DNA of 64,000 bases from the NCBI GenBank assembly GCA_019456145.1, contig VRUL01000003.1, positions 124,001 through 188,000 of the forward strand, written 5' to 3'. This document shows positions 17,702 through 63,165 of this stretch, in pieces (the stretch's first letter is position 1; every line of letters starts with the position of its first letter). The notes beneath the pieces are model-generated. The model was not told where the DNA came from, ran no database searches, and saw only the letters and a list, made by a program, of their open reading frames with translations. This DNA comes from Planctomycetota bacterium. Its GTDB lineage: Bacteria > Planctomycetota > Phycisphaerae > Sedimentisphaerales > Anaerobacaceae. A program made the position numbers and the translations under genes.

Positions 17702-17723
17702 TAGGAATTCTGGAATAGAGTTA

Positions 17724-18434: not shown

Positions 18435-18441
18435 CATAATA

Positions 18442-20038: not shown

Positions 20039-20130
20039 AACTCAAGCTATGAATTGGAAGACTATTTTCGTTTGAACTGTAGTGAATGGATATTAATAAG
20101 TATGACACAATCTGAATGGACAGGTTCTCA

Positions 20131-27811: not shown

Positions 27812-27846
27812 ATTAGTGTTGAGATCAGGGCTAAAGAAGGATTAAA

Positions 27847-29376: not shown

Positions 29377-29384
29377 CGGAGGAG

Positions 29385-29441
29385 ATGATTCAACAGACTT
29401 ATTCAAAACTGTTCAAAAAATCATCAAAAAACAAGACATGA
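29385..29441 (+). CDS. Possible 18-residue leader ORF with strong ribosome site
   Basis: An ATG at 29385 lies just behind GGAGGA (29379-29384), starting 8 bases past the radical SAM stop. It encodes 18 residues (MIQQTYSKLFKKSSKNKT) and its TGA overlaps the ATG of the carboxypeptidase gene (ATGA at 29438). The distance from the GGAGG to the start is short. It may be a coupling peptide for the next gene or the relic of a shifted N-terminus. It is too short to judge by composition. Confidence 0.3.
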   Translation: MIQQTYSKLFKKSSKNKT

Positions 29442-30706
29442 AACTTATTAAAGATTTTTCCGGTGCATCGGTCGGCGATTTTAGCGTTGACGGAAATGAG
29501 ATATACGCAGGCATTTTCGAAGAGCCTTCGGTGAAGGTTGACGGAATAGTACATGATTACGGCCTTCATTTCTGTTTCGGTGTATCGAATGACAGTGGAA
29601 AAGGTGTTTCTGCGGATATTTATATCAATACAGACAAGAGTCGTGGTGATTTAATTCATGATGTAAAGATATACATGGCAAAGAATCCGGGGGAGGAGTT
29701 TGCGTATGGTATTATCGGTAAAACCGACCGCAAAAAAAGTTATTCGTTTTTGTTGTCGCTGGGAGCGAATGAAACGGTATATGTTGCAAATGCATACGTG
29801 AGGCAGTACGAAAGGGTATCGGCCATATTCAAAGAACTGGCATGTCAGGGCCACGGAGAGAAAATCATATACGGTAGGAGCGTCGAAGGGCGGGAGCTTT
29901 CGGCATACAGATACGGCAGTGAAATCGGGCAAGACGATAAGCCTGAAGTTTTTATTGTTTCCGGCTGGCATCCTCCCGAAGGTGATACATTCGGCACGGA
30001 AGGAATTGCTGAGATTCTCTCAGATGACAGGGAAAGGGAGGAGTTACTCAAGTCTGTCAACATCACAATTATTCCGATAGGCAATCCTGATGGTTTCGTT
30101 CATGGTTTCAATGGTTGTAACTTGAAACTTAGAAACGTTTACTGGGACTTTGATATAAACAACAAAGACGAGATGCCGGAAACGTATTTTGCATGGAAAC
30201 TGATGGGAAAGATAAAGCCGGATATTTATTTTGATTTTCACGGTTACACTTTTCAGGGCGAGAGTAAATTTTTGTCTTCCTACATTAAACCGTTATTATT
30301 TTATAGCAGCAGGCGAAGGATGTTTGCAGAGAATCTAAACAGAAGAATCATCGAACGGTGTGGTGGCAAGTGTGTAAAGGGGTATTCTACATTTGCTCCA
30401 TCGACCCCAGGCTGCCGGTTAACGTCAAAATTTGATACGATAACTTATGCGAAATTTCATTTCCACATTGATGATGGGATCTCTGGAATTAAAAAAATGG
30501 CATGTGACTTGTTGAAGATAACCATCGGCGAAATTAAAAAAACAAACAGCAGCGTTTTTCATAATAATACTGCAAGCTTTCTTTCTTTGCACACAATATG
30601 CTGTAAATTTTATACATATATTATTGGCTATTGCAAAATTAAGGTAAATCAATTCGTCAAGAGCATATTGAAATCGCTTAGACAACAAGAAAAAAGCAAT
30701 GCCTGA
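29438..30706 (+). CDS. M14-type zinc carboxypeptidase-like protein
   Basis: 422 residues from ATG 29438; the frame is open upstream to 29324 but that lies inside the radical SAM gene. The metal site of M14 metallopeptidases is visible: His178-x-x-Glu181 in GWHPPEGD, GNPDGFVHG further on, and His268 in FDFHGYTFQG. The 170 N-terminal residues form a beta-rich pre-domain as in AGBL/M14-like proteins. There is no signal peptide, so it is probably cytoplasmic. M14 enzymes cut C-terminal residues or remove amino acids from amide-linked conjugates; in a glycan operon it may trim an aminoacyl group from a sugar, which is speculation. It overlaps the next gene by 8 bases. Confidence 0.72.
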   Translation: MKLIKDFSGASVGDFSVDGNEIYAGIFEEPSVKVDGIVHDYGLHFCFGVSNDSGKGVSADIYINTDKSRGDLIHDVKIYMAKNPGEEFAYGIIGKTDRKKSYSFLLSLGANETVYVANAYVRQYERVSAIFKELACQGHGEKIIYGRSVEGRELSAYRYGSEIGQDDKPEVFIVSGWHPPEGDTFGTEGIAEILSDDREREELLKSVNITIIPIGNPDGFVHGFNGCNLKLRNVYWDFDINNKDEMPETYFAWKLMGKIKPDIYFDFHGYTFQGESKFLSSYIKPLLFYSSRRRMFAENLNRRIIERCGGKCVKGYSTFAPSTPGCRLTSKFDTITYAKFHFHIDDGISGIKKMACDLLKITIGEIKKTNSSVFHNNTASFLSLHTICCKFYTYIIGYCKIKVNQFVKSILKSLRQQEKSNA

Positions 30707-31517
30707 CAATACGATGGAACAAATTGATATCTTGAACTTGTTAAAAATAGCAGCAGAAGCAGGTGATGCTGTTATGGAAGTGTACAATACAAGCTTTACT
30801 TATAAGCACAAAGAAGATTGTTCGCCCCTGACATTGGCGGATAAACGTTCAAATGAAATAATTACGCAAAGATTGCAAGAAGCCTACCCTGATATTCCAA
30901 TAATTTCGGAAGAATCAAAAAGTATTCCCTATGAAACAAGAAGTCGGTGGGAAGAGTTCTGGCTTGTTGATCCTCTCGACGGCACAAAGGAATTTATCAA
31001 GAGGAACGGGGAGTTTACAGTAAATATTGCTTTGATTGATAATAATGTTCCGGTTGCCGGTGTTGTTTATGTACCTGTAACTAAAACATTTTACTTTGCC
31101 AGGAAAGACTTCGGGTCATACAAGTTTGTTGATGACGGCAAAGTTCAAGCAGCGAAAGATATTCAAGAGATAACAGCAAGTGCCTGTCGTCTTCCCGAAG
31201 GACCAGAGGGGCGGGCATTTACAGTGGTAACAAGCCGCTCTCACATATCAAAGGAAACAATGGAATACACCAATGAATTGCGACAGAAACATGGGACCGT
31301 TGAAGTTATTGCCTGTGGAAGTTCTTTGAAATTGTGCATGGTCGCTGAGGGTAAAGCAGATATTTATCCACGTCTTGGACCGACATCAGAGTGGGACATT
31401 GCCGCCGCCCATGCTGTGGTGAAGGAAGCAGGCCGAGGGGTATACAGTTACCACAGCGGTGAAGAATTCACATATAACAAGGAAAGTCTGCGTAATGAGT
31501 GGTTTATCGTCAGTTGA
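30699..31517 (+). CDS. cysQ: CysQ-like 3'(2'),5'-bisphosphate nucleotidase
   Basis: 272 residues of the inositol monophosphatase superfamily. Metal-binding motifs are complete: Glu71-Glu72 (ISEES), Asp91-Pro-Leu-Asp94-Gly-Thr (VDPLDGT), and WDIAAAHAV near the C-terminus. CysQ converts 3'-phosphoadenosine 5'-phosphate to AMP and thereby drives sulfotransferase reactions. In this locus, which also encodes a CDP-phosphoramidate kinase-like enzyme, the by-product of transfer from a 3'-phospho-CDP donor would be a similar 3',5'-bisphosphonucleotide, so CysQ could serve either chemistry. It overlaps the M14 gene and lies 33 bases before neuB 2. Confidence 0.9.
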   Translation: MPDNTMEQIDILNLLKIAAEAGDAVMEVYNTSFTYKHKEDCSPLTLADKRSNEIITQRLQEAYPDIPIISEESKSIPYETRSRWEEFWLVDPLDGTKEFIKRNGEFTVNIALIDNNVPVAGVVYVPVTKTFYFARKDFGSYKFVDDGKVQAAKDIQEITASACRLPEGPEGRAFTVVTSRSHISKETMEYTNELRQKHGTVEVIACGSSLKLCMVAEGKADIYPRLGPTSEWDIAAAHAVVKEAGRGVYSYHSGEEFTYNKESLRNEWFIVS

Positions 31518-31550
31518 GCAAGATATTCCCTGCTTTAGAAGTACTGAAAC

Positions 31551-32564: not shown

Positions 32565-33733
32565 AAAAAATAGGAATTGTCGTAACATCAAGAGCCAGTT
32601 ATGCGCGGATAAAAACAGTCCTCAAAGCCATCCGGAACTCCTCTGATCTGGAGTTGTTTCTGGTTGGTTCAGCATCACTGCTTTTATATAAGTACGGCAA
32701 CGCATATCAAATAATCGAAAAGGACGGGTTTGTTATTGATGAAAAAGTGTACATGTTGGTTGAAGGCGAGAATCCCGCTACAATGGCCAAGAGCGTAGGG
32801 ATCGGGATAATGGAACTGTCCACAATCTTCGATAATCATAAACCAGATATTGTAATTTCCATAGCGGACAGATTTGAGACCATATGTACGGCTATTGCTG
32901 CTTCGTATCTGAATATTCCCGTTGCACATATCCAAGGCGGAGAACTAACCGGTTCTATTGACGGGAAAGTAAGGCACGCAGTAACCAAGTTTTCATCGCT
33001 TCATTTTGTTGCGAATGAAGAGGCAAAGCAAAGGGTACGAATGATGGGTGAGCCGGAAGAGTCCATATTCGTAACGGGCTGTCCTTCTGTTGACCTGGCA
33101 AATGAAGTCAAAAACGGCAATAGCTTTATGAATACTAAATATCTTTATTCCAAATACGGAGGCACAGGTGCATTTGTTGACATTGATAAGGATTTTCTGA
33201 TTGTTATGCAACACCCAGTTACGACAGAATTCGAAGAAAGTCATAAACATGCCCGAGAGACCTTATCGGCCGTGAGGGAGACAGGAATTCCTGCTATTGT
33301 GATGTGGCCTAATGTTGACGCCGGCAGTGATTTGATCTCAAAAGCAATAAGAGATTTCAGAGAGGAGTTCAAGCCAGACAATGTTCACTTTTTCAGGAAT
33401 TTTGAGCCGGAAGACTTTTTTGCGCTTCTCTTAAAATCAAAGTGCATTGTAGGAAACTCTTCTGTGGGGATACGGGAATGTTCGTTCCTGGGTGTACCTG
33501 CCGTCAATATTGGAACTCGCCAGGAAGACCGTAAACGTGGCAAGAATGTAATTGATGTATCGTATTCGAAGAATGAAATAAAGAAAGCCATTACAAAACA
33601 CTGCCGGGACAACAGCAGATATCCTTCGGTGCAATTATATGGAGACGGAGCGGCCGGAGAAAGAATAGGGAGAATTCTGACTGAAGTGAATCCGAGCAGC
33701 AAAAAGAGGTTTGCCGAATGGAAAGTATCTTAA
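32561..33733 (+). CDS. neuC: UDP-GlcNAc 2-epimerase (hydrolysing)-like 2
   Basis: 390 residues. VTSRASYARIKTVL at the N-terminus replaces the usual GTRxxF of NeuC but is found in the legionaminic-type branch. Further blocks: ADRFETICTAIAA, HIQGGELTGSIDGKVRHAVTK, HFVANEEA, MQHPVTTEF and GNSSVGIRECSFLGVPAVNIGTRQ. It forms an ATGA overlap with neuB 2 and overlaps the next dehydrogenase by 16 bases, so the three are one coupled unit. It would produce the 2-epimerised sugar for NeuB 2. Whether the UDP sugar is GlcNAc or a diacetamido form remains open. Confidence 0.9.
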   Translation: MKKIGIVVTSRASYARIKTVLKAIRNSSDLELFLVGSASLLLYKYGNAYQIIEKDGFVIDEKVYMLVEGENPATMAKSVGIGIMELSTIFDNHKPDIVISIADRFETICTAIAASYLNIPVAHIQGGELTGSIDGKVRHAVTKFSSLHFVANEEAKQRVRMMGEPEESIFVTGCPSVDLANEVKNGNSFMNTKYLYSKYGGTGAFVDIDKDFLIVMQHPVTTEFEESHKHARETLSAVRETGIPAIVMWPNVDAGSDLISKAIRDFREEFKPDNVHFFRNFEPEDFFALLLKSKCIVGNSSVGIRECSFLGVPAVNIGTRQEDRKRGKNVIDVSYSKNEIKKAITKHCRDNSRYPSVQLYGDGAAGERIGRILTEVNPSSKKRFAEWKVS

Positions 33734-34650
33734 TTGGATATCCATTGGACAAATACAGCGAATTTGCACCATTGCTGGACAGGTTAGGGCAGAAGTATGT
33801 ATTAGAGTGCAGGGATTACGATTACAATTGGCTTTCGGCAAATATCGAAAAGTTTGAGCATTTTGTCCCAAGCATAAAAGTTAAGATAGACGACGATATT
33901 ATAAATAAAGCTGTTAAACTCAAAACAGTTTTTTCCCCTGCCACTGGGAATGACCATCTTGGTTTTGCCCGTCCTGAGAAGATTAAAGTGGTAACGCTGG
34001 CAGATTTCAAGGAGGAAATAAGGGATATCAGTTCCACGGCGGAACTGGCTTTTTGTTTTATTCTGTCATTATCAAGAAAAGTTGTTTTGGCCTGCGGTGA
34101 TGTTTTGACTAAAGGCGTGTGGGACAGAAACAAGTTTTTGGGAGAGGAACTCAAAGGAAAGGTTGTCGGCATCGTAGGGATGGGCAGGGTCGGCAGAAAG
34201 ATAAGCAGCTACGCCGAAGCGTTTGGCATGAAAATAAACTACTGGGACAAAAAGGCGGTTGATGGCAGATGGCAGAGGATAGAGAAGCTTGAAAAACTGT
34301 TATCTACTTGTGATTATATTGTATGCTCTATAAGTTTGACCGAAGAGACGCAGTATCTTTTGGATAAATCTTGTCTGAAACATTTCAAGGGCGGCAGTTA
34401 CTTTATAAATATAAGCAGGGGAAAGGTGGTTGAGGAATCCATGCTGGTCGAAGGCATGGAGAGGGATATATTTAACGGGGTGGCAACCGATGTTTTGGAG
34501 AGTGAGCTGGAAGATGTAGGGGCTTCTATTCTATATAATTATGCAAGACGTAATCCCGGGAAGAATATAATTATTACTCCTCATGTTGGTGGCGCTACTT
34601 TACAGGCATGGGAGAAAGTCTTTGGCCTGATTTTGAAAGTGATAAATTGA
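33718..34650 (+). CDS. D-isomer-specific 2-hydroxyacid dehydrogenase
   Basis: 310 residues. NAD-binding motif GMGRVG (154-159), catalytic Arg234 (NISRGK), Glu261 or Glu263 (VLESEL) and His289 (TPHVGG) are all present, so it should be active. It resembles SerA/GyaR-type dehydrogenases that interconvert 2-oxo and 2-hydroxy acids. In this operon it may supply an acyl precursor, such as a glyceric or lactic acid derivative, or oxidise a sugar acid; inference. Coupled to neuC 2 by a 16-base overlap and to the next gene by a one-base stop/start overlap (TGATG). Confidence 0.85.
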   Translation: MESILIGYPLDKYSEFAPLLDRLGQKYVLECRDYDYNWLSANIEKFEHFVPSIKVKIDDDIINKAVKLKTVFSPATGNDHLGFARPEKIKVVTLADFKEEIRDISSTAELAFCFILSLSRKVVLACGDVLTKGVWDRNKFLGEELKGKVVGIVGMGRVGRKISSYAEAFGMKINYWDKKAVDGRWQRIEKLEKLLSTCDYIVCSISLTEETQYLLDKSCLKHFKGGSYFINISRGKVVEESMLVEGMERDIFNGVATDVLESELEDVGASILYNYARRNPGKNIIITPHVGGATLQAWEKVFGLILKVIN

Positions 34651-36158
34651 TGGTTACAAAGAAACCTCAAGAGGAAAAACGCGAATCGCAGCAGACAGTT
34701 TTTATCTCCGCGTATCGAAGCGTTTCAGTCAGATACATACTTTATTCCGACATTTTCAAGAGGCTGCGGGAGAAAAAGGGCCTGAGGATAGTGGTTTTTT
34801 TGAAGGCCAATGACATAGAGTATTATCGCAAGAAACTTGGCGGTGACAACATACTTTTCGAGTCAGTACTCTTTGATAAGGCATACAGTCTTTTGCGGCA
34901 TAATATTTTAAGTGTATTTTTTGTTCTTGTCCGCAGATGCCTGTCCGGAAGGAGAAAGGGATATGATAACACCACGGACAAAGTGCTTCAGTATCGGTAT
35001 AAAGAGGATCTGTCGGGAAGTTTGAAATGGCGTATGTTTTTTCAAGCTGTTCGCATGGTTGCGGCCATAGGGAGTAGAACATCTTTTATTCGAAAAACCA
35101 TCCTTGCATCCGAAACTTTTTTGTTTCCCGGCAGGATGTATGACGGTTATTTTAAAAAGTACAGACCTGATATGCTTGTAACATCTTCCATTGGAAATAT
35201 GATCGACTCTTATTTTATGCGAGCAGCGAAGCGAAGCCGCTGCAAGGTAGTATCTGTTGTTCACAGCTGGGATAATACGTCCACTCGAAATTATCGCGGC
35301 GCGGACCCTGACGTTGTGATTGCCTGGAACGACATCATGAAACGTGAGGTGAATATTTTTCACGATGTTCCCGAAGAAAAAATATGGGTGGGAGGAATAG
35401 CTCACTGGGATTTTTATTTTGATGACAGTTTCAGGCCCCGCAGCAAGAAAGAGTTTCTCCGTTTTTGTGGTCTTTCTGAGGGAAAGCAGATTATCTTTTA
35501 CGGAACATCGAGCCCTAAGGCGTTCAGGAATACGTTCGACGTTGTAGAACAATTGCTGTGTGAAATGGAAAAAGACCCGTTCCTCTCTGGAGCCCAACTC
35601 CTTGTGCGGCTTCACCCGTCTTATCTCAACAGGCAAAAAGGAAATGAAGGTCTTGTTCTCGACCGTTATAAGGAGAGGATGGACGGACTTAAAAGAATAC
35701 ACGGTGACAGAATCGCTTTTAATCTTCCGGAGGTTGTAGTTCTAAATGACGATTTAGACATGACATTGGAAGACATGTATATTCTTGCCGAGATATTAAA
35801 GTATTCTGATGTAATGCTGACGGAGTATTCCACGCTTATGATTGAGGGGAGCATTTTTGATTTACCAGTTATTAATATTGGCCTTTATAATTTCATAGAT
35901 ACAGCCAAGCCCGCAAGTTATTTCGAAGAGATGACACATATCAAGCGAATTATAGAAACAGGTGCGACCAAGAATGCTTATACAATTGAACAAGTTTGTG
36001 AATATATCAAGTGGTATCTTGAAGACCCTTGTCGCGATCGAGAACTAAGAAAGAAGGTTGTTGACCGGGAAGTCGATACAAACCCCGGACATGCAGGGGA
36101 GCAAATTGCCGAATATATATATGAGCTTCTGCATGAAAGAATGAAGGTTAACAGTTGA
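34650..36158 (+). CDS. GT-B-type surface-glycan transferase (family shared with 60476 gene)
   Basis: 502 residues from ATG 34650, which shares a base with the upstream stop; an ATG at 34608 lies within the dehydrogenase. Blocks DMLVTSSIGNMID, VVHSWDNTSTRNYRGADPDVVIAWND, EEKIWVGGIAHWDFYF, LLVRLHPSYL and a late YSDVMLTEYSTLMIEGSIFDLPVINIG resemble the CDP-glycerol glycerophosphotransferase or UDP-GlcNAc 2-epimerase-like GT-B fold. It is clearly paralogous to the protein at 60476 (same SWDNT, GG(I/V)AH and RLHP blocks). Probably transfers a sugar or an ulosonate from a nucleotide donor; donor unknown. No membrane segment. Confidence 0.68.
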   Translation: MVTKKPQEEKRESQQTVFISAYRSVSVRYILYSDIFKRLREKKGLRIVVFLKANDIEYYRKKLGGDNILFESVLFDKAYSLLRHNILSVFFVLVRRCLSGRRKGYDNTTDKVLQYRYKEDLSGSLKWRMFFQAVRMVAAIGSRTSFIRKTILASETFLFPGRMYDGYFKKYRPDMLVTSSIGNMIDSYFMRAAKRSRCKVVSVVHSWDNTSTRNYRGADPDVVIAWNDIMKREVNIFHDVPEEKIWVGGIAHWDFYFDDSFRPRSKKEFLRFCGLSEGKQIIFYGTSSPKAFRNTFDVVEQLLCEMEKDPFLSGAQLLVRLHPSYLNRQKGNEGLVLDRYKERMDGLKRIHGDRIAFNLPEVVVLNDDLDMTLEDMYILAEILKYSDVMLTEYSTLMIEGSIFDLPVINIGLYNFIDTAKPASYFEEMTHIKRIIETGATKNAYTIEQVCEYIKWYLEDPCRDRELRKKVVDREVDTNPGHAGEQIAEYIYELLHERMKVNS

Positions 36159-37923: not shown

Positions 37924-40308
37924 ATGAAATTTGTTTTTGGAACAAAGACAGAAACACTTGAACGTATAGCTCCTTTGCTTTCGTTTTCACATGTCCCTGA
38001 ACTTTGCCATTTTACGGTAGACCAGTGGAAAGTAAGCAGGGATTCTGTTCTGCAAGAAATACAATCCCGGTTCGAACACGGCAAGATTATTGTTCGTTCC
38101 AGTGCTCTTACAGAAGATGGTGCATCTTTTGCTATGGCGGGAATGTATGATTCTATTCCAGATATTCAGGTTGATGATGTCGATTCTTTGAGTAATGCAA
38201 TTAATACTGTTATCTCCAGTTACGAAAAATCACATCACGATAACAGCGATCAGCATCAGGTACTTGTTCAGCCTATGATTAAAGACGTTTCAATGAGCGG
38301 AGTATTATTCACACAGGACTTGAATACGGGGGCTCCATATTATGTGATAAACTATGACGATGAAAGCGGGCAGACAGATACTGTTACTTCGGGAAAAGAA
38401 AACAGCAACAGAACACTGCTCGTACATCGTGAATCTGTTGCTAATCTTTGTTCCGAACGTTTTAAAGCGGTCCTAAAATCAATACAGGAAATAGAAAAAC
38501 TTATCAGCAGTGATTCTCTTGATGTCGAATTTGCCTTAGACAAGAACAATAAAGTGTATCTTTTTCAGGTTCGTCAGATCACTACAAAACCCAACTGGAA
38601 CCGTGGCATTACTATTCAAGTCAATGATGCGATTAAACGCATTGGGGAATTTATAAAGGGTGCTCTGGTTCCTCGACAAGGATTATCCGGCAAAACAACA
38701 CTTTTTGGGAGAATGCCGGACTGGAATCCCGCTGAGATGATAGGCACCGCTCCGCGTCCTTTAGCATTATCGCTTTACCAGCGTCTTATCACAGATTGTG
38801 TCTGGCGCCAAGCTCGAAGTCACATGGGGTATTTTGAACCGCAAGGAAGCCGTCTGATGGTCTCTCTGTCCGGTCAGCCTTATATCGACGTGCGTTTAAG
38901 TTTCAACTCTTTTCTTCCTGCAAACCTTGACACCTCAATAAGAGATAAACTGGTGGACGCATGGTTAAAGAGATTATCAGAACATAAGGAGTTGCACGAT
39001 AAAGTTGAGTTCGATGTTGCCATAACTGCTTTGACGTTTGATTTTGACACTTCTATTGAAGAACAAATGCCCGGCATTCTAACTGAGCACGAAAAGTCTG
39101 TTTTCCAGAAGAGTCTTTTTATACTCACGAATAATTTGCTTACAGGCAAAACTGCTCCAATCGAAGAGCAATTGGATAAAATTGAGTTATTACAGCAGCG
39201 TCGTGGAGATATGATTAGTAAGTGTCAGTGCCCTGATTTAGCAGTTGTGGCCGGACTGCTGGAAGATTGTATTTCTTTGGGGACGATACCTTTTAGTATA
39301 TTAGCGCGACATGCATTCATTGCAAAAAGTTTTCTTCGCTCATTCCTTCGATGCGGTCTGGCGGATGAGTCGGCGATAACATCTTTTCAAAAATCGACAA
39401 AGACGGTAGCAGGTGAAGTGGTGAATGACCTCGACAACCTTATGCTTGGTGATATCAGTCCGGAAGAGTTTATGGATAAATACGGGCACCTGAGACCGGG
39501 CACATATGATATCTTATCCAAAAGATATGACCAACGAGAAGATTTGATTAATGGAAATGTCGCAAAGCCGGTGCAAAGAGAAACAGCCAAAGATTTTTCG
39601 TTTTCATCAGGGCAATTAAATAAAATCACCAAGTTATTGAAGCAGTTCGGATTTACTTTAGATGCACATGAATTGATTAGTTATATATCTGAGGCTGTTA
39701 TTGCCCGCGAATATGCAAAGTTTGTATTTACAAGAAATATCAGTGATGCTTTGGAAATTATTGCTGCCTGGGGCGAAAATATCGGTTTGAGTCGGGAAGA
39801 GCTTTCATATTTACGTATAGATGACATTTTGGATACGATAAACATATCGCGTGGCAGGACATTGGAACAGCATTTGCGCAATATATCGCTCGATGAAAAG
39901 AAAAAGCATGAAATCACACTTGCCCTTCGTTTGCCGTATCTTATTGAGACACCTGAAGACGTTGCTATTGTTCCTTTACTGTTTCACAAGCCGAATTTTA
40001 TCACACAAAAGACAGTCAGGGGTAGTTATGTGTTTCTTGACGGTGAAAATGAAAATATACCGGAAATTGCAGGCCAAGTAGTTTTAATAGAGGGCGCAGA
40101 TCCTGGTTTTGATTGGATTTTTTCACGTCCAATACTGGGTCTTATTACCAAATTTGGCGGTGCAAATTCTCACATGGCAATCCGCTGCGCCGAATTCGGT
40201 CTTCCTGCCGCTATCGGCTGTGGCGAACAGATATTTGACCGTATATTACGTTCACGATTTCTGGAACTGAATTGTTCCGAGGGTAGAATTGAATCAATCG
40301 AGGCATAA
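37924..40308 (+). CDS. L-glutamine kinase-like PEP-synthase-family enzyme (Cj1418-like)
   Basis: 794 residues. An N-terminal nucleotide-binding ATP-grasp-type part (RSSALTEDG about 56-64, AMAGMYDS, VLVQPMI, FTQDLNTG, VEFALDKNNKVYLFQVRQI) is joined by a long central region to a C-terminal phosphohistidine domain, where GGANSHMAIR carries the mobile His750. This architecture is that of PEP synthases, but the PEP-binding barrel is missing, as in C. jejuni Cj1418, which phosphorylates the amide of L-glutamine. Identification rests on architecture and on the three neighbours that match Cj1417, Cj1416 and Cj1415. It is the first step of phosphoramidate donor synthesis. The next gene starts 3 bases after its stop. 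Confidence 0.8.
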   Translation: MKFVFGTKTETLERIAPLLSFSHVPELCHFTVDQWKVSRDSVLQEIQSRFEHGKIIVRSSALTEDGASFAMAGMYDSIPDIQVDDVDSLSNAINTVISSYEKSHHDNSDQHQVLVQPMIKDVSMSGVLFTQDLNTGAPYYVINYDDESGQTDTVTSGKENSNRTLLVHRESVANLCSERFKAVLKSIQEIEKLISSDSLDVEFALDKNNKVYLFQVRQITTKPNWNRGITIQVNDAIKRIGEFIKGALVPRQGLSGKTTLFGRMPDWNPAEMIGTAPRPLALSLYQRLITDCVWRQARSHMGYFEPQGSRLMVSLSGQPYIDVRLSFNSFLPANLDTSIRDKLVDAWLKRLSEHKELHDKVEFDVAITALTFDFDTSIEEQMPGILTEHEKSVFQKSLFILTNNLLTGKTAPIEEQLDKIELLQQRRGDMISKCQCPDLAVVAGLLEDCISLGTIPFSILARHAFIAKSFLRSFLRCGLADESAITSFQKSTKTVAGEVVNDLDNLMLGDISPEEFMDKYGHLRPGTYDILSKRYDQREDLINGNVAKPVQRETAKDFSFSSGQLNKITKLLKQFGFTLDAHELISYISEAVIAREYAKFVFTRNISDALEIIAAWGENIGLSREELSYLRIDDILDTINISRGRTLEQHLRNISLDEKKKHEITLALRLPYLIETPEDVAIVPLLFHKPNFITQKTVRGSYVFLDGENENIPEIAGQVVLIEGADPGFDWIFSRPILGLITKFGGANSHMAIRCAEFGLPAAIGCGEQIFDRILRSRFLELNCSEGRIESIEA

Positions 40309-40311
40309 ACC

Positions 40312-40992
40312 ATGTCTATGCGTATAGGTATAACAATGCGCGTAACAGAAAATGCGAGTTACCCTGAACGGCGTGATTCAGTGAGTCAGGAGTGGGGCGC
40401 TTATATAGCTAAGGTTTTGCCGGAAGCGGTACTTGTTCCTCTATTAAACCGTCCGGACGATGTGATAAGGTGCATGGAGGAGTTGAATATTGAAGGTGTT
40501 ATTCTTTCCGGCGGGAACGACTGGGACGAGGCCGCAGAGAGAGATGAAACAGAAAAACGTCTTGTCGATCACTGTATGCGAGAGGAAATCGCTGTTCTTG
40601 GTGTATGCAGAGGCATGGAGGTGCTAAACGTATTGTTCGGGGGACAGTTGGAGGATGATATTTATAAGGCAAGTGAGGAAGGACACGTAAATGTTAACCA
40701 CACGGTCAAGATTCAACGTTGCCGGTTTGCAAACTGGGATGAGGGTGAGATATTAACAAACAGTTTTCACAGTCAGGGAATTATAGTCTCGGGTATGTCT
40801 GATGAGTTCAAGGTGTTTGCCCAGACAGCTTTGGGTGTGGTTGAAGGATTTTATCATCCCAACAAGCCTGTTGTTGGTATTCAATGGCATCCGGAGCGCG
40901 ACAATCCAGCGGAGGCGTTTGATAAACAGCTGATAAGAACGTTGTTTTACAGTGGTGTGTTTAGCGGCAGTGAGAGAAACGAGCAAAGATGA
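40312..40992 (+). CDS. Gamma-glutamyl-CDP-amidate hydrolase-like class I amidotransferase (Cj1417-like)
   Basis: 226 residues of the glutamine amidotransferase class I (peptidase C26) family. The nucleophile is Cys99 in GVCRGMEVLN; His193 and Glu195 (QWHPE) complete the triad; SGGND at 66-70 is the oxyanion region. In the C. jejuni phosphoramidate pathway such an enzyme removes glutamate from gamma-glutamyl-CDP-amidate, giving cytidine diphosphoramidate. Alone it could be read as a gamma-glutamyl-GABA hydrolase; the position between the kinase-like and cytidylyltransferase-like genes favours the pathway role. Stop and next start overlap (ATGA, 40989-40992). Confidence 0.82.
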   Translation: MSMRIGITMRVTENASYPERRDSVSQEWGAYIAKVLPEAVLVPLLNRPDDVIRCMEELNIEGVILSGGNDWDEAAERDETEKRLVDHCMREEIAVLGVCRGMEVLNVLFGGQLEDDIYKASEEGHVNVNHTVKIQRCRFANWDEGEILTNSFHSQGIIVSGMSDEFKVFAQTALGVVEGFYHPNKPVVGIQWHPERDNPAEAFDKQLIRTLFYSGVFSGSERNEQR

Positions 40993-41732
40993 AAGCGATA
41001 ATTCTGGCTGCGGGTCGCGGAAGTCGTCTTAAGGGTATCACGGATGACCGTCCCAAATGTTTAAGTATTGTCAGGGGTATGACTATGCTTGAAAGTCAGT
41101 TGTCCGTGTTGAAAACTGGGGGGGTCGATGAGATTATAATCGTGACCGGATACAAAAATCAGGTGCTCGAGATGTTTGGCTGTCGAACAGTACATAATTT
41201 ACAGTGGGAAGAAACAAATATGGTCGTAAGTCTGTTGTGTGCATCAGAGGAGTTCGCGCATGGGGCAATAGTGAGTTATTCTGATATTATCTACGGTAAA
41301 GATATTGTGTCTCAGCTGGCAAAGCGGACGGAGGACATTGTGATCGTATATGACCGGGATTGGAAAAGGTTATGGGAACTCCGATTCGAAGACCCTTTGC
41401 AGGATGCCGAAAGCTTTGTTATCGATTCAGATGGCAGGATTCGTGATATAGGTCGAAAGGTTCAAAGCCTTGAAGATGTTCAAGGCCAGTATACCGGACT
41501 TATGCGTTTTTCGAAAAAAGCCTTCGAATGGATCGAGGATTTTTGCGATAGGCAGCCTGAGAAGGTTTTACATAAAATGGACATGACAACTATGCTGCGT
41601 TCACTCATAAAAGAGAGGTATCCTGTTTATGGTATGGCTATCGATGGTGGTTGGTGCGAAATAGACACAGAGACCGACCTTGCACTGGCAAACAGGCTTT
41701 GCGCTGAAGGCCGACTCGATTTTTGTGGTTGA
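40989..41732 (+). CDS. CTP:phosphoglutamine cytidylyltransferase-like (Cj1416-like)
   Basis: 247 residues of the sugar/choline-phosphate nucleotidyltransferase family. The signature AAGRGSRL (7-14) and DRPKCL (20-25) bind the nucleotide; YSDIIY (about 97-102) holds the metal Asp; the C-terminal GGWCEIDTETDL (about 221-232) is as in LicC-type cytidylyltransferases. In C. jejuni, Cj1416 uses CTP and L-glutamine phosphate to form gamma-glutamyl-CDP-amidate. Choline-phosphate or sugar-phosphate activation would be the alternative, but no choline kinase is present. Coupled to the gene before by ATGA and 10 bases before the methyltransferase. Confidence 0.82.
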   Translation: MKAIILAAGRGSRLKGITDDRPKCLSIVRGMTMLESQLSVLKTGGVDEIIIVTGYKNQVLEMFGCRTVHNLQWEETNMVVSLLCASEEFAHGAIVSYSDIIYGKDIVSQLAKRTEDIVIVYDRDWKRLWELRFEDPLQDAESFVIDSDGRIRDIGRKVQSLEDVQGQYTGLMRFSKKAFEWIEDFCDRQPEKVLHKMDMTTMLRSLIKERYPVYGMAIDGGWCEIDTETDLALANRLCAEGRLDFCG

Positions 41733-41742
41733 GGGTGATGCC

Positions 41743-42537
41743 ATGCGAAAAATGATGAGATATGAGGATAATCTGAAGTACTGGGACCGTCGCTGGTCTG
41801 AAGCGGAGTGTGACGCCGATTCTTTCGAGAATTTGGATATTTACCCAATAAAATATGCTGAGATGGTGGTGGGAAACAATAACGGGCGGGTTGCCGAGTT
41901 TGGCTGTGGCCTGGGGCGGGTTGTAAAACATTATCATGCCAGAGGAGTAGAAATTACCGGAATTGAGCGTAGCGAGATTGCTGTACAAAAAATCAAAGAG
42001 GAAAGCAGCGATTTGAAAGTTCTTGTCGGTGATGTAAGCAAACTTTCTTTTCCCGATGGGTATTTTGATACGATTCTTGCATTTGGTTTGTATCACAATA
42101 TCGAAGATGGGATGGTGGATGCGATAAAGGAAACATTGCGATGTCTCAAAGGGAGCGGGGGTTTCTGTGTTTCGATTCGTCCTGACAATCTTGAGATGAG
42201 GTTAAACGAGTGGTATTGGAATTTCAAGGCCCGAAAAAAATACGGGAAAAGCCGGCCTGGTTATTTCCATAAGTGGGCAGTCAAAGAAGATGAATTCAGG
42301 GCCATTCTTAAGGATTTGGGCTGTAAGATAGAAAAGGTTTTTTATGCGAGGAATGTGTCTATCCTGTGGCGTGTGCCTTTTCTGAGGAAGTACCGCAATC
42401 TTAAAAATGTAAGTGAAAAGGAGCTGAGGTCCTGCGGGTATCAGCTAAATACCGTGGGAGAGCTTCTGGACAGACTGCTCCGGTTAGCACCAAGGTCTTT
42501 TAGCAATGTAATGGTTTTTATTGGTAAGAAACTTTAG
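41743..42537 (+). CDS. SAM-dependent methyltransferase in the phosphoramidate gene set
   Basis: 264 residues from ATG 41743 with GAGGGTG about 8 bases before; the frame is open further upstream but only within the previous gene. Class I methyltransferase: VAEFGCGLGRVV (about 50-61), ITGIERSE, LVGDVSKLSFPDGYFDTI and FGLYHNIED. In C. jejuni two methyltransferase genes (Cj1419, Cj1420) accompany the phosphoramidate genes and one of them is held to O-methylate the phosphoramidate. This gene is the candidate for that step, or else it methylates the sugar. It lies 16 bases before the start of the kinase gene. Confidence 0.78.
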   Translation: MRKMMRYEDNLKYWDRRWSEAECDADSFENLDIYPIKYAEMVVGNNNGRVAEFGCGLGRVVKHYHARGVEITGIERSEIAVQKIKEESSDLKVLVGDVSKLSFPDGYFDTILAFGLYHNIEDGMVDAIKETLRCLKGSGGFCVSIRPDNLEMRLNEWYWNFKARKKYGKSRPGYFHKWAVKEDEFRAILKDLGCKIEKVFYARNVSILWRVPFLRKYRNLKNVSEKELRSCGYQLNTVGELLDRLLRLAPRSFSNVMVFIGKKL

Positions 42538-42553
42538 CAGAAGAGAAACGGTT

Positions 42554-43075
42554 ATGGTTATCTGGGTAATCGGGTTATCCGCTTCAGGCAAGACTACGCT
42601 GGGCAGGCATATTTATGAGGAGTTGAAAAAAGTAAAAACCAACACTGTGTTTATCGATGGTGATGAAATACGGCAGATTTTTAAACATGACCAAGGCAAC
42701 AGCCCTTATACACTTGAAGGACGCCGGATTAACGCTGACCGCATTTGTGAAATGTGTGCCTGGCTTGACCGACAGGACATTAATGTGGTGTGCTGCATTT
42801 TGTCGGTTTTCGAAGAATCCCGTCAATGGAACAGAAAGACTTACTCAAGTTATTTTGAAGTTTACATAGATGTACCTATGGAAATATTGAAAACACGAGA
42901 AACCAAGGGACTCTATGCGGCAGCGCATCGTGGAGAAATAAAAAATGTAGTAGGAGTCGATATTACTTTTACTGCCCCTAAAAATCCTGACTATATCTTT
43001 GACAACAGTAAAGACAATGTTGATTTTAAAAAGGCGGCCCAAGATATTCTTACGAAAGCTATGCAGGAGAGCTGA
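42554..43075 (+). CDS. CDP-phosphoramidate kinase-like, APS-kinase family (Cj1415-like)
   Basis: 173 residues from ATG 42554 (a TTG at 42521 is within the previous gene). P-loop GLSASGKTT (7-15), IDGDEIR, and the lid segment with KGLYAAAHRGEIKNVVGVDI mark the APS kinase (CysC) family. True APS kinases need ATP sulfurylase partners; none is in the window. In C. jejuni the equivalent Cj1415 adds a phosphate to the 3'-hydroxyl of cytidine diphosphoramidate, making the donor resemble PAPS. Context with Cj1418-, Cj1417- and Cj1416-like genes makes this the preferred reading; an APS kinase remains the alternative. Stop overlaps the next start by one base. Confidence 0.8.
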   Translation: MVIWVIGLSASGKTTLGRHIYEELKKVKTNTVFIDGDEIRQIFKHDQGNSPYTLEGRRINADRICEMCAWLDRQDINVVCCILSVFEESRQWNRKTYSSYFEVYIDVPMEILKTRETKGLYAAAHRGEIKNVVGVDITFTAPKNPDYIFDNSKDNVDFKKAAQDILTKAMQES

Positions 43076-43680
43076 TGAAGTTGTACCCTTACGCTGAAGG
43101 CGATTTATTAACCGAACGTAACACATATTTCTATACGCCGTATGAAGGACGTAAGTTTATTGAGGCATGGAAGGAAAGTCGCGATTCGATTGTCGAGACA
43201 ATTGGTGAAGAAGTTTGCCCTCCTTTGGCTGAAGAATTAATATCGTTGGAAGATATGTCCAAGAAAGCTGCAGATGGAGACCTTATCGAGGCCTCTGTCT
43301 GGCTGGATTCTTTGTATGTACCTATGGCAACCAAAGGCGTCGAAATCTGGAAGGACATTGCTGTTTATGTTGATGTCCTTGTAAAAAGATTTGAAATCAC
43401 TAAAAGAATACACAAAGCTTACGTCAAGGGTTTTCGGGCCCACGACAAGGATGCATGCAGAGATTTATCGTTATACATCCGCGCCGCTGAGGTTTTTGAA
43501 GTTGCGTATGATTTGAGTAAAGCTTTGCCGTACCTGAATGTATTGTTGAAATGTCTCGATACTTTGTGTGCATACAGCAGTAATCTAAATGAGTCAGAAA
43601 GTGGGCGACTGGGAAGGCTTATTGGTTTAGAGAGAAAGCATATTACCGAATTGGCAGAATCGCGGGGGGTGTCTATATGA
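43075..43680 (+). CDS. Unknown helical protein coupled to the phosphoramidate genes
   Basis: 201 residues, entirely helical in appearance, without signal, membrane segment or recognisable motif. The N-terminus (MKLYPYAEGDLLTERN) is followed by several amphipathic helices (ISLEDMSKKAADGDLIEASVWL, LLKCLDTLCAYSSN). Start ATG shares its A with the stop of the kinase gene, and its own stop overlaps the next start (ATGA), so it is cotranslated with both. It may be an accessory subunit or a small binding protein. I cannot name a family. Because the coupling is so tight, its product is likely needed in step with the kinase or the formyltransferase-like protein. Confidence 0.55.
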   Translation: MKLYPYAEGDLLTERNTYFYTPYEGRKFIEAWKESRDSIVETIGEEVCPPLAEELISLEDMSKKAADGDLIEASVWLDSLYVPMATKGVEIWKDIAVYVDVLVKRFEITKRIHKAYVKGFRAHDKDACRDLSLYIRAAEVFEVAYDLSKALPYLNVLLKCLDTLCAYSSNLNESESGRLGRLIGLERKHITELAESRGVSI

Positions 43681-44390
43681 AACTTGATAAGGTGTTGTTC
43701 CTTGGGAGCTATACAAGCCGGTCGCAGTCATACGCACAGGCTTTAAGTAATGCCGGTTTGCATCCGAAGCATGTTTTACTTTTCGGGACAGAAGGTGGTT
43801 CGTTGCCCGGACAGGGCCAGGCAAAGGGTTTTACAAACGGCATGAAAGATTTATTTATACCGGATTTTTCAGAGCCGCTGGAGGAAACGGTTTCGCGATG
43901 GGGATGCGGTGTAGATAAGATTTGCGAGCAATCAATTAATTCTGCGTTGATTTACGAGTGTATCAAGAAGATAGGGCCTCGCATGATAATTTACTCAGGA
44001 TATGGAGGGCAAATAGTAGGTGGCAAGCTTTTAGGTATAGGTATTCCTTTTTTACACATGCATAGCGGCTGGCTGCCTGATTATAAGGGGAGCACGACGC
44101 TTTATTACAGTTGGCTGAAGGAGGATTATTGTGCTGTTTCGGCAATCATCCTGGCAGAAAAGATTGATGCCGGTCCTATTGTGGCAAAAAAGAGATATCC
44201 ACCACCCAGGGGAGTTGATCCTGATTACATGTATGATAATGCAATCAGAGCTGATTTATTGGTTTCGGTTTTAAAGGACTACAGTGCCTCCGGGAGGTTT
44301 GCCAACCCAGAACCACAGACCAATAAAGGAACATACTATTACGTTATTCACCCTGTTTTGAAACATCTTGCCCGGCTTCAAGGCAATTGA
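43677..44390 (+). CDS. Formyltransferase-like protein with changed catalytic Asn
   Basis: 237 residues resembling the N-terminal domain of formyltransferases (Fmt, ArnA, WbmP-type). The signature HMHSGWLPDYKGSTT (127-141) corresponds to NxHPSLLPxYRG; the first residue, normally the catalytic Asn, is His127, while His129 and the late Asp in KIDAGPIV (about 163) are kept. The folate donor region is not obvious. It may form a formamido group on an amino sugar with altered chemistry or bind another carbamoyl-type donor. Coupled by ATGA to the unknown gene before it; a sulfotransferase-fold gene follows after 18 bases. Confidence 0.72.
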   Translation: MKLDKVLFLGSYTSRSQSYAQALSNAGLHPKHVLLFGTEGGSLPGQGQAKGFTNGMKDLFIPDFSEPLEETVSRWGCGVDKICEQSINSALIYECIKKIGPRMIIYSGYGGQIVGGKLLGIGIPFLHMHSGWLPDYKGSTTLYYSWLKEDYCAVSAIILAEKIDAGPIVAKKRYPPPRGVDPDYMYDNAIRADLLVSVLKDYSASGRFANPEPQTNKGTYYYVIHPVLKHLARLQGN

Positions 44391-44408: not shown

Positions 44409-45641
44409 ATGTCTGAAATCAAGAATCATTCTTCAGCAGAACAAGGTGTCGGGGATAGTCGGCCCAGATATATTTTTATTGCCGGCACACCACGTTCCGG
44501 TGGTAGTGTTACTTTAGCCTCTTTAGACGATCATCCAGATCTTCTTGCTTGGCCTAATGAGTTTCTGTATTTTCCATTTTTTTACCAGGTTGCAAAAGGT
44601 CGTCAAGAGGTACCTGTTTGTGAATTAAATCAGAAACTATTAAATGTATCTTTTGCCGCATTTAGGAAAAGATTACAAAATGTAAACGGCATTTATGTCC
44701 AAGACAGTTTGAGTTCAACACATAGTGAAAGTTACAATATAGGTGACTTTGATTACCAGGTCTTCCTTGAAAATCTGGAATCTGTTTCAGATGAACATTT
44801 TACTGCCGTTGGGTATTTGGATTTTTTGTTCGAATGTCTCAAAAAAGCAAACAGAAAATACAGGGACAAGCAGGTCAAATATAATGTTCTTCTGACCGGA
44901 GCACGTGGTTTTGACTGGAACAATAATAATCTATTAGAAACATCCATGTTTCTTTTCTCATACAGAGAAGCGGAAGATTCTTATGCTTCACTACGTGAAA
45001 GACGATTGAGAAAAGCTGGTCTAAATATGCTTTTCTCTCCAGCCGGGAAAAAATCATTATTATACTGGGTTGAAACTTACAGACGGATTTCAGACTACGC
45101 CAAAGACCACATAGATCACGGCAACTTTCTCGTTGTGCCATTGAAAAACTTACAGGCAGATAGCGATGAGTTTCTGAGAAAAATCTGTGCTTTCCTTAGT
45201 ATCAAACCATATCCGAGCATTTATGATTTGTCAGTTTGTGGTGCCCCTTACAAAGGTAATGCCAGTGAAGGCAATTTAAACCGGGGCAAAATTGCCAAGC
45301 GAACAAGTAAGCCCCGGACACCACTTTGCAGTTTTGAAAAAAGGGCTTTTGCTTTAGTTGATTTATTCGATTTTTCCGAAGGCAAACCGAGAAAAATGCC
45401 TCCTTTTGGACTTGTCGAGATGATCCAAAAAGCTTTTTCAAGTGCATTTTCTGAGATACCAGCTGAAAATATCACAAAAAGAATCAGCCTTCCGGTTGGT
45501 ATATTCTTCGAGAGGGTGTTGATGTTTTTTAAGTTGTGTTTGATATACCCGGGACTCAAGAATACATGGCTGAAGATGAAGTTTATTAAAAAGAGTAATC
45601 TGCATGTAATAAATAACCCTTTTTGGACTCGAATCAAATGA
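44409..45641 (+). CDS. Sulfotransferase-fold protein 1
   Basis: 410 residues. The PAPS-binding P-loop is GTPRSGGSVTLASLDDHPDL near residues 27-46, and the 3'-phosphate region appears further on (SYREAEDSYASLRERR; PLKNLQADSDEFLRKICAFLSI). It is a cytoplasmic sulfotransferase of the bacterial family that sulfates glycans. The usual donor is PAPS; the donor of the neighbouring phosphoramidate pathway is also a 3'-phosphorylated nucleotide, so it might alternatively transfer that group. The C-terminal 100 residues are basic and may contact membrane. It follows the formyltransferase-like gene and overlaps the next start by 4 bases (ATGA). Confidence 0.75.
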   Translation: MSEIKNHSSAEQGVGDSRPRYIFIAGTPRSGGSVTLASLDDHPDLLAWPNEFLYFPFFYQVAKGRQEVPVCELNQKLLNVSFAAFRKRLQNVNGIYVQDSLSSTHSESYNIGDFDYQVFLENLESVSDEHFTAVGYLDFLFECLKKANRKYRDKQVKYNVLLTGARGFDWNNNNLLETSMFLFSYREAEDSYASLRERRLRKAGLNMLFSPAGKKSLLYWVETYRRISDYAKDHIDHGNFLVVPLKNLQADSDEFLRKICAFLSIKPYPSIYDLSVCGAPYKGNASEGNLNRGKIAKRTSKPRTPLCSFEKRAFALVDLFDFSEGKPRKMPPFGLVEMIQKAFSSAFSEIPAENITKRISLPVGIFFERVLMFFKLCLIYPGLKNTWLKMKFIKKSNLHVINNPFWTRIK

Positions 45642-46947: not shown

Positions 46948-48948
46948 ATGCCTTTTGCAGAAAAAACAAAGGTAAAAAAGAAGCAAGATCATACTACGGT
47001 GGCATTTACTAAACTAAATACAAAACAATATAGAGTCTTTGTTTCTACTCAACCTTTTGGTTCCATAAATTCTGAGCCTTTGGATATTCTGGCCCGGTAC
47101 AATGCAGAGGTTGAGCTGAACCCATACGGCAGAAAAATGGAGCCGGAAGAATTTAAAAAACATATAGCGGACAAAGATATTCTGATTGCAGGTACTGACA
47201 GGGTCGATAAAGCCGTGCTTGATCGCGCACCGGGTCTGAAACTTATAGCACGCGTTGGGATCGGGATTGACAATATTGATTTTGCGGAAGTTAAAAAACG
47301 TGGAATAATTCTAACGTATACACCTAATGCCGTTTCACAAGCAGTTGCGGAATTAACTGTTGCAAATATGCTTAATGCAGCCAGGATGATCCCACAAATC
47401 TATTTGGCGATGAAGAAGCGTCACTGGAACCGACAGATCGGTTTTGAAATATCAGGTAAAGCAATCGGGCTGATAGGTTTCGGGCGTGTAGGCCAGCGTG
47501 TAGCCAAAATGCTCCAGGGCTTTTCGTGTCGAATTCTTGTCAATGATATTGCTCCCGACCAGGAAACGGGCAGTCGGTATAATGTTGTCTGGGCCACTAA
47601 AGAAGAAATTTACTCTCAGGCTGATATAATATCACTGCATGTGCCACATACTCCATTAACATATAACATGATAGACACAACCGAAATAGAAATGATGAAA
47701 CCGCATGTATGTATCATTAATACTTCCCGTGGAGGAATAATCAACGAAGATGCTCTGTATCATGCTCTGAAAACAGGAAAGATCGGTACAGCGGCAATTG
47801 ATGTCTATGAGAACGAACCATATACTGGACAGCTATGTGAGCTTGATAATATTATTCTTACCGCCCACAGCGGTTCATGTTCCAAAGAAGCACGCTATTT
47901 GATGGAACTTGGAGCGGCACAAGAAGTAGTTCAGTTTGTTACCGGCAAACCTCCTATCGAGCCTGTACCTGATGATGTTATCAAAATGGAATGTTCCACT
48001 CACGCCGGGAAGGTCAAATTCGAGTGGCATGAGATACTGAATCAAAGCCAGGAACGTGACGACCAGCGTTACATGATTTATCGAAAGCACTGGAATCAGT
48101 ACCCGACGCATAGAATCGTTGGGCCGTATCCTCTTAATCTCGACTTAGAGTTGGTTCATAATCCTTTGGAAGGATATGAACGGGGCAGGATGCTGGATTA
48201 TTTCATGTCGCCTCTTCATCCTCGCGCAAAATTCATGGAGATGGCTCTTTTTGAGAAAGTCATCAACGAAATCGATAAAATGACCGAGCCGATGGCCATC
48301 AAGCTTGGGGTGCGCGGCTGTCCAACATACCATCCTCATTTGGAGCAGATACTGCGGATGCTTAAAGAGGCCAACTGCGTAGAGACGATAATTTCTGTAT
48401 GTCTTAGTCAGCTGGTAGGCATTCGAAAATCCATATTTGATACTATGGTTGAGTGTGGACTTGGAGTGCTCAATATATTTGTGGATACGCCTGCAAAAGA
48501 CGATGCCATATTGGACATACTTGCTGGGATAAAAAAGAAAAGATCCGTACACAAAAAAGCCAGTCTCAAATTGCGGATTATCGGCAATAGTAAATGGGAG
48601 GACTCACAAGAAGTGGGAATATTTGAAGATTTCTGGAGTCACTGGGCCGATGTCATTGCTTTAGTCGACCCTCGGGATTATCAACGCAAGATTTCCGATA
48701 GGGATTGGGACTGTTTGAGATTGTGGCAGCGACTGACGATTTCAGCTGAGGGAAAGATTCTGGCTTGTAATTATGATATAAGCGAAGAATTTTGTCTCGG
48801 CCAATTTCCTGGATGTTCCATTCAGGATGCATGGCGAGGAGAGAAAATGAAGCGTCTTCGTGATGTACATGTATCGACTCGAGAAACCTGTTCAATATGT
48901 AACATCAAAAGAAACTCCCTGTTGCAGAACTGGAACAATATTAAATAA
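46948..48948 (+). CDS. Fusion: SerA-like dehydrogenase plus radical-SAM/SPASM-like domain without SAM cysteines
   Basis: 666 residues, GGAG before the ATG. Residues about 28-335 are a D-2-hydroxyacid dehydrogenase of the SerA type: GFGRVG (177-182), Arg261, Glu288 and His307 are all present. From about 395 the sequence follows the plan of a radical SAM protein (ALFEKVINEIDKM, then IKLGVRGCPTYHPHLEQILRMLKEA, then LGVLNIFVD), but the CxxxCxxC cluster position has LVHNPLEGYERGRM and no Cys between 349 and 458. The C-terminus keeps a SPASM-like cysteine set (607, 616, 623, 648, 651). It may be a catalytically silent radical-SAM fold serving as binding module, or a new reaction. The dehydrogenase probably works on a 2-oxo or 2-hydroxy acid. 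Confidence 0.78.
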   Translation: MPFAEKTKVKKKQDHTTVAFTKLNTKQYRVFVSTQPFGSINSEPLDILARYNAEVELNPYGRKMEPEEFKKHIADKDILIAGTDRVDKAVLDRAPGLKLIARVGIGIDNIDFAEVKKRGIILTYTPNAVSQAVAELTVANMLNAARMIPQIYLAMKKRHWNRQIGFEISGKAIGLIGFGRVGQRVAKMLQGFSCRILVNDIAPDQETGSRYNVVWATKEEIYSQADIISLHVPHTPLTYNMIDTTEIEMMKPHVCIINTSRGGIINEDALYHALKTGKIGTAAIDVYENEPYTGQLCELDNIILTAHSGSCSKEARYLMELGAAQEVVQFVTGKPPIEPVPDDVIKMECSTHAGKVKFEWHEILNQSQERDDQRYMIYRKHWNQYPTHRIVGPYPLNLDLELVHNPLEGYERGRMLDYFMSPLHPRAKFMEMALFEKVINEIDKMTEPMAIKLGVRGCPTYHPHLEQILRMLKEANCVETIISVCLSQLVGIRKSIFDTMVECGLGVLNIFVDTPAKDDAILDILAGIKKKRSVHKKASLKLRIIGNSKWEDSQEVGIFEDFWSHWADVIALVDPRDYQRKISDRDWDCLRLWQRLTISAEGKILACNYDISEEFCLGQFPGCSIQDAWRGEKMKRLRDVHVSTRETCSICNIKRNSLLQNWNNIK

Positions 48949-54670: not shown

Positions 54671-54697
54671 ATTTTAAGCAGTAAGTTGGACTATTTT

Positions 54698-59031: not shown

Positions 59032-59046
59032 AAGGAGAACAGGCTT

Positions 59047-63151: not shown

Positions 63152-63165
63152 GGTAATAACTTATT

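Follow-up and report, generated by a model that had tools for sequence, protein, structure and literature searches.

A predicted CDP-phosphoramidate donor pathway in a glycan locus of a Planctomycetota bacterium and its relatives in many phyla

Introduction

Does a bacterium of the phylum Planctomycetota carry the pathway that supplies Campylobacter jejuni with the O-methyl phosphoramidate (MeOPN) of its capsule? The question is raised by five genes at 37924-43075 of a 64,000-nt stretch of contig VRUL01000003.1 (hereafter the window; coordinates count from its position 1), in which a sequence-only reading had recognised a complete MeOPN-type pathway. In C. jejuni the donor is the product of four genes, cj1415-cj1418, and the group is attached by two transferases (PMC3907429); with Cj1418, phosphorylation of an amide nitrogen was demonstrated for an enzyme for the first time (PMC10971088). 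As described below, the set is by far best read as a cytidine diphosphate (CDP)-phosphoramidate donor pathway, which we regard as very probable. Gene identities, conservation, linkage and motif changes were observed directly, and every reaction is predicted from the characterised C. jejuni enzymes.

Results

Organization of the locus

All five genes lie where the sequence-only reading had placed them, on a single strand and with almost no spacing. Most joints are gaps or overlaps of a few bases; the kinase and amidotransferase genes are separated by 3 bases, while the amidotransferase and cytidylyltransferase genes overlap by 4. The unit also extends past 43075, with overlapping genes up to 43680 and then 44390. 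The genes, with the family or structural evidence behind each assignment, are as follows.

37924..40308, + strand: L-glutamine kinase-like protein (ATP-grasp PPDK_N, long middle region, C-terminal phospho-His); PRK05849/NF004508, Pfam
40312..40992, + strand: class-I amidotransferase, predicted hydrolase of CDP-linked phosphoglutamine (products CDP-phosphoramidate and glutamate); NF045546 as best NCBIfam model
40989..41732, + strand: LicC-type nucleotidyltransferase, predicted CTP:phosphoglutamine cytidylyltransferase; 1jyk as closest solved sequence
41743..42537, + strand: S-adenosylmethionine-dependent methyltransferase, predicted to O-methylate the phosphoramidate or the acceptor sugar; Methyltransf_11/25
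42554..43075, + strand: kinase resembling adenosine 5'-phosphosulfate (APS) kinase, predicted CDP-phosphoramidate 3'-kinase; PRK05541
43075..43680, + strand: U201, a helical protein and module member; linkage, no Pfam or NCBIfam match
43677..44390, + strand: formyltransferase-fold protein with His-x-His...Asp replacing Asn-x-His...Asp, module member; PF00551-related, fold match

The U201 gene starts at the final base (43075) of the small, APS-kinase-like kinase gene, and the formyltransferase-like gene overlaps the U201 gene by 4 bases (43677). For two genes the mechanical open reading frame begins upstream of the start that we prefer: for the methyltransferase ATG 41743 is most likely (mechanical start TTG 41680), and for the small kinase the start is probably ATG 42554 (mechanical start TTG 42521), because the protein lengths then fit those of the homologues.

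Enzymes of the donor set

The large kinase scored 901 bits against PRK05849/NF004508 (cut-off 501) and only about 41-50 bits against phosphoenolpyruvate (PEP) synthases, with 41 bits for TIGR01418, the cut-off of which is 739.75. Pfam recognised PPDK_N and PEP-utilizers as its only domains and found no PEP/pyruvate-binding domain. These results speak against a true PEP synthase, and the proposed type of a PEP-synthase-like L-glutamine kinase holds. His750, within the motif GGANSHMAIR, is invariant in 14 large-kinase sequences, among which the motif MPDWNPAE is invariant or nearly so. In public annotation, relatives of this protein are named 'PEP-utilizing enzyme'.

For the amidotransferase, the best NCBIfam model was NF045546, the gamma-glutamyl-CDP-amidate hydrolase of the Cj1417 type, which ranked ahead of GMP synthase, PuuD and others; the PuuD model NF008471 gave 38.6 bits (cut-off 266). 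The same model NF045546 also matched all 41 of the linked amidotransferase homologues tested, in support of the Cj1417 type. Among 81 sequences the catalytic Cys was kept in 100% and the His and Glu in 98%. The cytidylyltransferase has as its closest solved sequence the CTP:phosphocholine cytidylyltransferase LicC (1jyk, E 7.6e-16), and the signature GxGxR...PK was kept at 97-100% in 82 such proteins. Plasmid-borne relatives carry the RefSeq label CTP:phosphocholine cytidylyltransferase.

The small kinase passed PRK05541 (169 bits, cut-off 127) and, although it belongs to the APS_kinase Pfam family, fell below the apsK cut-off of TIGR00455 (121.4 vs. 138.7), in line with the type of a CDP-phosphoramidate kinase proposed for it. 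Alignments showed that solved APS kinases have the motifs GFS and FTG, with LTG in the archaeal ones shown. In fungal and human APS kinases the two Phe of GFS and FTG stack on the adenine. The small kinase has GNSPY and NVVG at these places, and none of the cassette-linked small kinases has both adenine-stacking Phe positions. By comparison, a true APS kinase of the same genome, on the contig that we call C67, has both the GFS and the FTG Phe. This second protein (62840-63280; L103) is fused to an N-terminal nucleotidylyltransferase-like domain and is encoded beside a sulfotransferase; C67 thus presents a separate sulfation locus in a genome with no recognised ATP sulfurylase family. A genome search for two ATP sulfurylase families found PF01747 absent and CysD below its cut-off, and no ATP sulfurylase gene adjoins the five-gene set. 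Taken together, the absent Phe positions, the lack of an ATP sulfurylase of the searched families and the family scores favour the phosphoramidate assignment over that of a PEP synthase, a PuuD-type hydrolase and an APS kinase.

Methyltransf_11/25 were the Pfam matches of the methyltransferase, homologues of which (type MTw) occur in 15 of 93 loci with a large-kinase relative, mostly together with an APS-kinase-like gene. The catalytic residues named in the sequence-only reading (His750, the Cys, His and Glu of the amidotransferase and the cytidylyltransferase signature) are all present and conserved in relatives, and the P-loop of the small kinase is intact.

On these assignments, the operon at 37924-44390 would provide activated phosphoramidate for a surface glycan. 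In the second step, following the large kinase, the cytidylyltransferase would join the product of that enzyme to CTP; in the third, the amidotransferase-like hydrolase would strip off glutamate and leave CDP-phosphoramidate; and in the fourth, the APS-kinase-like enzyme would phosphorylate the cytidine 3'-OH. O-methylation of the phosphoramidate is the probable role of the methyltransferase. The group would next be placed by a transferase on a sugar of the glycan for which the neighbouring nonulosonate and glycosyltransferase genes are responsible, and U201 with the formyltransferase-like protein might carry out a further step of the module, be it the transfer or a change to donor or acceptor. 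The claim of a complete MeOPN-type pathway therefore stands for the donor set; it does not extend to a final transferase, and a methyl group in the product is suggested by the methyltransferase gene.

Distribution and linkage of the cassette

Named genomes hold relatives of the large kinase at over 560 places. Among the 80 top-ranking ones are Omnitrophota, Peregrinibacteria, Pseudomonas, Methyloversatilis, Prochlorococcus, Pelagibacter, Bacteroidota, Cohnella, Woesearchaeota and Altiarchaeales, and none of the 80 is on a Campylobacter chromosome; plasmid-borne relatives occur in Azospirillum, Roseovarius, Vibrio, Cupriavidus and Agrobacterium. Methyloversatilis universalis EHg5, Azospirillum lipoferum 4B and Cohnella panacarvi are carriers that have been cultured and are not pathogens. 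Linkage was counted in 93 loci with a large-kinase relative, of which the 80 named ones are those nearest to the window, so that the shares describe this sample alone. The loci span about 16 phylum-level groups, archaea included, and contain the cytidylyltransferase in 85 cases, the amidotransferase in 83, the APS-kinase-like gene in 64, the formyltransferase-like gene in 38 and U201 in 35; one of two methyltransferase types is found in about a third. Linkage of this extent goes beyond a chance arrangement.

For 60 of the loci the sequence extends 4.5 kb or more in each direction, and gene sets were compared among these. The most frequent full set (22 of 60) consists of the core, the small kinase, U201 and the formyltransferase-like gene, with the methyltransferase type of the window in 7 of the 22, and is followed by the core with the small kinase and the second methyltransferase type (12 of 60). 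The second methyltransferase type (15 loci) and U201 (26 loci) never co-occur, though the independent cases on the tree are too few for a statistical test. Likewise, co-occurrence of the small kinase with U201 or with the methyltransferases was not significant once corrected for the tree, as independent pairs were too few.

Gene fusions support common pathways. A 1011-residue fusion of kinase and amidotransferase is encoded at 652-3687 of a record from human faeces (L106, MT837632.1), and U201 and the formyltransferase-like protein form one chain in five loci (L042, L056, L061, L063, L069). In about a dozen loci (L011, L012, L018, L057, L070, L081, L090, L095, L099, L101, L102), mostly without a small kinase, a degenerate cytidylyltransferase-like domain lacking GxGxR...PK is fused before the kinase. 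The record MT837632.1 is labelled 'Bacteriophage sp.' and looks like a bacterial contig. A viral origin of the cassette was considered and rejected, as no relative was seen in viral contigs.

Within the sampled Planctomycetota the large kinase is rare: 8 of 392 genomes have it, that of the window included, and it was found in none of 147 other genomes sampled from the same order. In a tree of the kinases, the window copy nests among those of Omnitrophota and Peregrinibacteria, with support 100 and up to 61-62% identity, and the remaining kinases of its phylum stand elsewhere; judging from this placement the cassette looks horizontally acquired in this genome. Contamination was rejected as an explanation, since a flanking gene elsewhere on the same contig is 83-92% identical in genomes of the same genus.

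U201 and the formyltransferase-fold protein

No Pfam or NCBIfam model matched U201. Its AlphaFold model is helical and of high confidence (pLDDT 94); Foldseek returned no match under E 0.1, and no solved relative is convincing. A likeness to (alpha/alpha)6 epimerases was considered, with a best aligner Z of about 10; this lies within the range expected for helical proteins and nothing was concluded from it. In all 12 carrier genomes that were searched whole, U201 occupies one place per genome, and of the 392 genomes of the phylum it is present in that of the window and absent from the other 391. No occurrence apart from the cassette is thus visible.

The formyltransferase-like protein scored 22.6 bits against PF00551, just below the cut-off of 26.1, which its homologues pass, and its model matched the folds of FMT, ArnA and WbkC with E values of 1e-9 to 1e-11. 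With methionyl-tRNA formyltransferase, ArnA, WbkC and VioF it shares the fold and the catalytic His and Asp. It differs from them in the catalytic triad, in which the Asn is replaced by an invariant His127 with His129 and Asp164 kept (31 of 31 homologues), in standing beside or fused to U201 and in being tied to a phosphoramidate cassette.

In six loci (L023, L024, L025, L030, L033, L057) the pair is replaced beside the small kinase by c20 proteins of about 405-430 residues without a clear family. As seen in L030 and L031/L032, the slot between the small kinase and the methyltransferase holds either the pair or an unrelated protein of about 410 residues, and these alternative occupants suggest exchangeable functions. 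The pair may modify the P-N group, formylate the acceptor or transfer the group. A bolder reading, which we hold less likely than not, is that it constitutes an undescribed enzyme of a widespread phosphoramidate system, either a phosphoramidate transferase or a P-N modifier, giving a surface chemistry unlike Campylobacter MeOPN in many phyla and some archaea. Flagellin genes adjoin cassettes with U201 or c20 (of 121 neighbour proteins, 4 matched flagellin), a hint that flagellar glycans may carry phosphoramidate.

Glycan setting and candidates for the transfer step

The cassette lies among genes for NeuB, NeuC, a KdsB-like protein, glycosyltransferases and an ABC exporter. Three nonulosonate-type sets (NeuB-like, NeuC-like and acylneuraminate cytidylyltransferase-like) were noted at 17616-22297, 27065-33733 and 56490-60507 of the window, in one glycan locus. 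Two genes outside the operon bear on the transfer of the group.

44409..45641, + strand: sulfotransferase-fold protein, candidate phosphoramidate transferase or ordinary sulfotransferase; PF13469, motifs
30699..31517, + strand: CysQ, 3'(2'),5'-bisphosphate nucleotidase; TIGR01331

The sulfotransferase-like gene begins 18 bases after the formyltransferase-like gene. Its product scored 36 bits against PF13469 (cut-off 27) and carries the 5' loop (TPRSGGSVTL) and the 3'-phosphate motif (R...S at +8). CysQ scored 291 bits against TIGR01331 (cut-off 228.8) and is the sole copy over the cut-off in the genome. Because the predicted product of the small kinase, 3'-phospho-CDP-phosphoramidate, resembles 3'-phosphoadenosine 5'-phosphosulfate (PAPS), and because this only CysQ over threshold sits in the same locus, the protein at 44409 may tentatively be taken as the first candidate for the phosphoramidate transferase. 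CysQ would clear or recycle the 3'-phospho-CMP left after transfer.

Transferase genes that recur near the cassettes encode sulfotransferase-fold proteins, CDP-glycerol glycerophosphotransferase-like proteins and CDP-alcohol transferases. In the window, glycerophosphotransferase-like proteins are encoded at 34608-36158, above the Pfam threshold, and at 60476-61930, near it. CysQ was rejected as a regular partner, being near 3 of the 93 cassettes only. A tie between sulfotransferase and small kinase was weak: all seven of the loci found by scan (seed and motif) have a small kinase, but so do 64 of the 93, and the Pfam counts lean toward such an association. A second, short and possibly incomplete sulfotransferase-like reading frame (PF13469) was seen at 54686-55270. 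An unusual fusion of a D-2-hydroxyacid dehydrogenase with a C-terminal SPASM iron-sulfur domain (Pfam) was noted at 46948-48948.

Discussion

Comparison with known systems

The set of the window shares with the C. jejuni MeOPN pathway (Cj1415-Cj1418, Cj1419/Cj1420) the four donor enzyme types in nearly the same order, a methyltransferase and the placement in a glycan locus. It differs in phylum, in the added U201 and formyltransferase-like genes, in the distance of the amidotransferase from the Cj1417 equivalog score and in having a sulfotransferase-fold candidate in place of Cj1421/Cj1422. With the synthesis of PAPS and its use by sulfotransferases it has in common a 3'-phosphorylated nucleotide donor, the kinase and transferase folds and recycling by CysQ, whereas the nucleoside is predicted to be cytidine rather than adenosine, the adenine-stacking residues are missing and no ATP sulfurylase is recognised.

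The expectation that a phosphoramidate modification outside Campylobacter-like bacteria would be new was not borne out, since the cassette is widespread and unmethylated phosphoramide has been reported in the lipopolysaccharides of Xanthomonas and Shewanella (PMC3907429; PMC8042644). Those of Xanthomonas campestris and Shewanella share with the window a surface-glycan phosphoramide outside Campylobacter; they differ in being known as chemical structures. According to a 2022 review (PMC9561416) the glutamine kinase is specific to C. jejuni, and full-text searches returned titles and abstracts that mention it solely for Campylobacter or in general reviews, although the key C. jejuni enzyme papers may remark on its distribution. 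The Campylobacter-type donor pathway, as predicted here, is much more widespread than the literature consulted states, with two added module genes.

Several points weigh against the CDP-phosphoramidate assignment. Likeness to Cj1415-Cj1418 was judged through NCBIfam models rather than by pairwise comparison, and the link to the Campylobacter enzymes runs through PRK05849, which we take to include Cj1418, and PRK05541, which presumably includes Cj1415. The amidotransferase reaches 104 bits against NF045546, far below the curated cut-off of 250, and is therefore a relative that is not filed as a member of that equivalog. No homologue of a known MeOPN transferase was identified, and no Cj1421 or Cj1422 sequence was compared. 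We know of no counterpart of U201 or of the formyltransferase-like gene in the C. jejuni set. Finally, some relatives have the large kinase without the amidotransferase or the small kinase, so that the kinase family may serve more than one pathway.

Alternative explanations

Of the alternatives, the one that survives best accepts the core as a source of CDP-phosphoramidate and directs it to a small molecule or lipid headgroup instead of a surface polysaccharide. In its favour, the triplet on an Agrobacterium vitis plasmid is not part of a glycan locus and has a CDP-alcohol phosphatidyltransferase and a translocator as neighbours, and in further loci the cytidylyltransferase is followed by a CDP-alcohol transferase. 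The window set, in contrast, is embedded in an extended glycan locus that includes an ABC exporter as well as nonulosonate and glycosyltransferase genes, and none of the window proteins scanned was recognised as a CDP-alcohol transferase, which makes such a destination unlikely here.

A sulfation locus, in which the APS-kinase-like enzyme would make PAPS and the protein at 44409 would sulfate the glycan, the other genes being unrelated, appears less likely still. It would account for the PF13469 sulfotransferase directly downstream, for the APS_kinase Pfam membership of the small kinase and for the nearby CysQ. However, the small kinase is without the Phe pair and below the apsK cut-off, a separate true APS kinase stands beside a sulfotransferase on C67, and no ATP sulfurylase family exceeds its cut-off. 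Sulfation would also leave unexplained why the small kinase is linked to the glutamine-kinase cassette (64 of 93 loci). The sulfotransferase at 44409 may nevertheless be an ordinary PAPS enzyme supplied from C67.

Phosphocholine-like decoration, with the LicC-like enzyme activating phosphocholine or another phospho-alcohol, a substrate prepared by the kinase, is the least probable: it fits the solved relative and the RefSeq name of the plasmid-borne proteins, yet it leaves the amidotransferase unexplained, and the large kinase belongs to the ATP-grasp/phospho-His enzymes rather than to the choline kinases.

Biological meaning

If the CDP-phosphoramidate reading is true, phosphoramidate decoration would be a widespread surface chemistry that has been masked by misannotation. 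Phages of C. jejuni use MeOPN as a receptor, and consequences for phage recognition would be likely. The loci also provide a testable list of cultured, non-pathogenic species, and the two new module genes could be assayed with a known donor.

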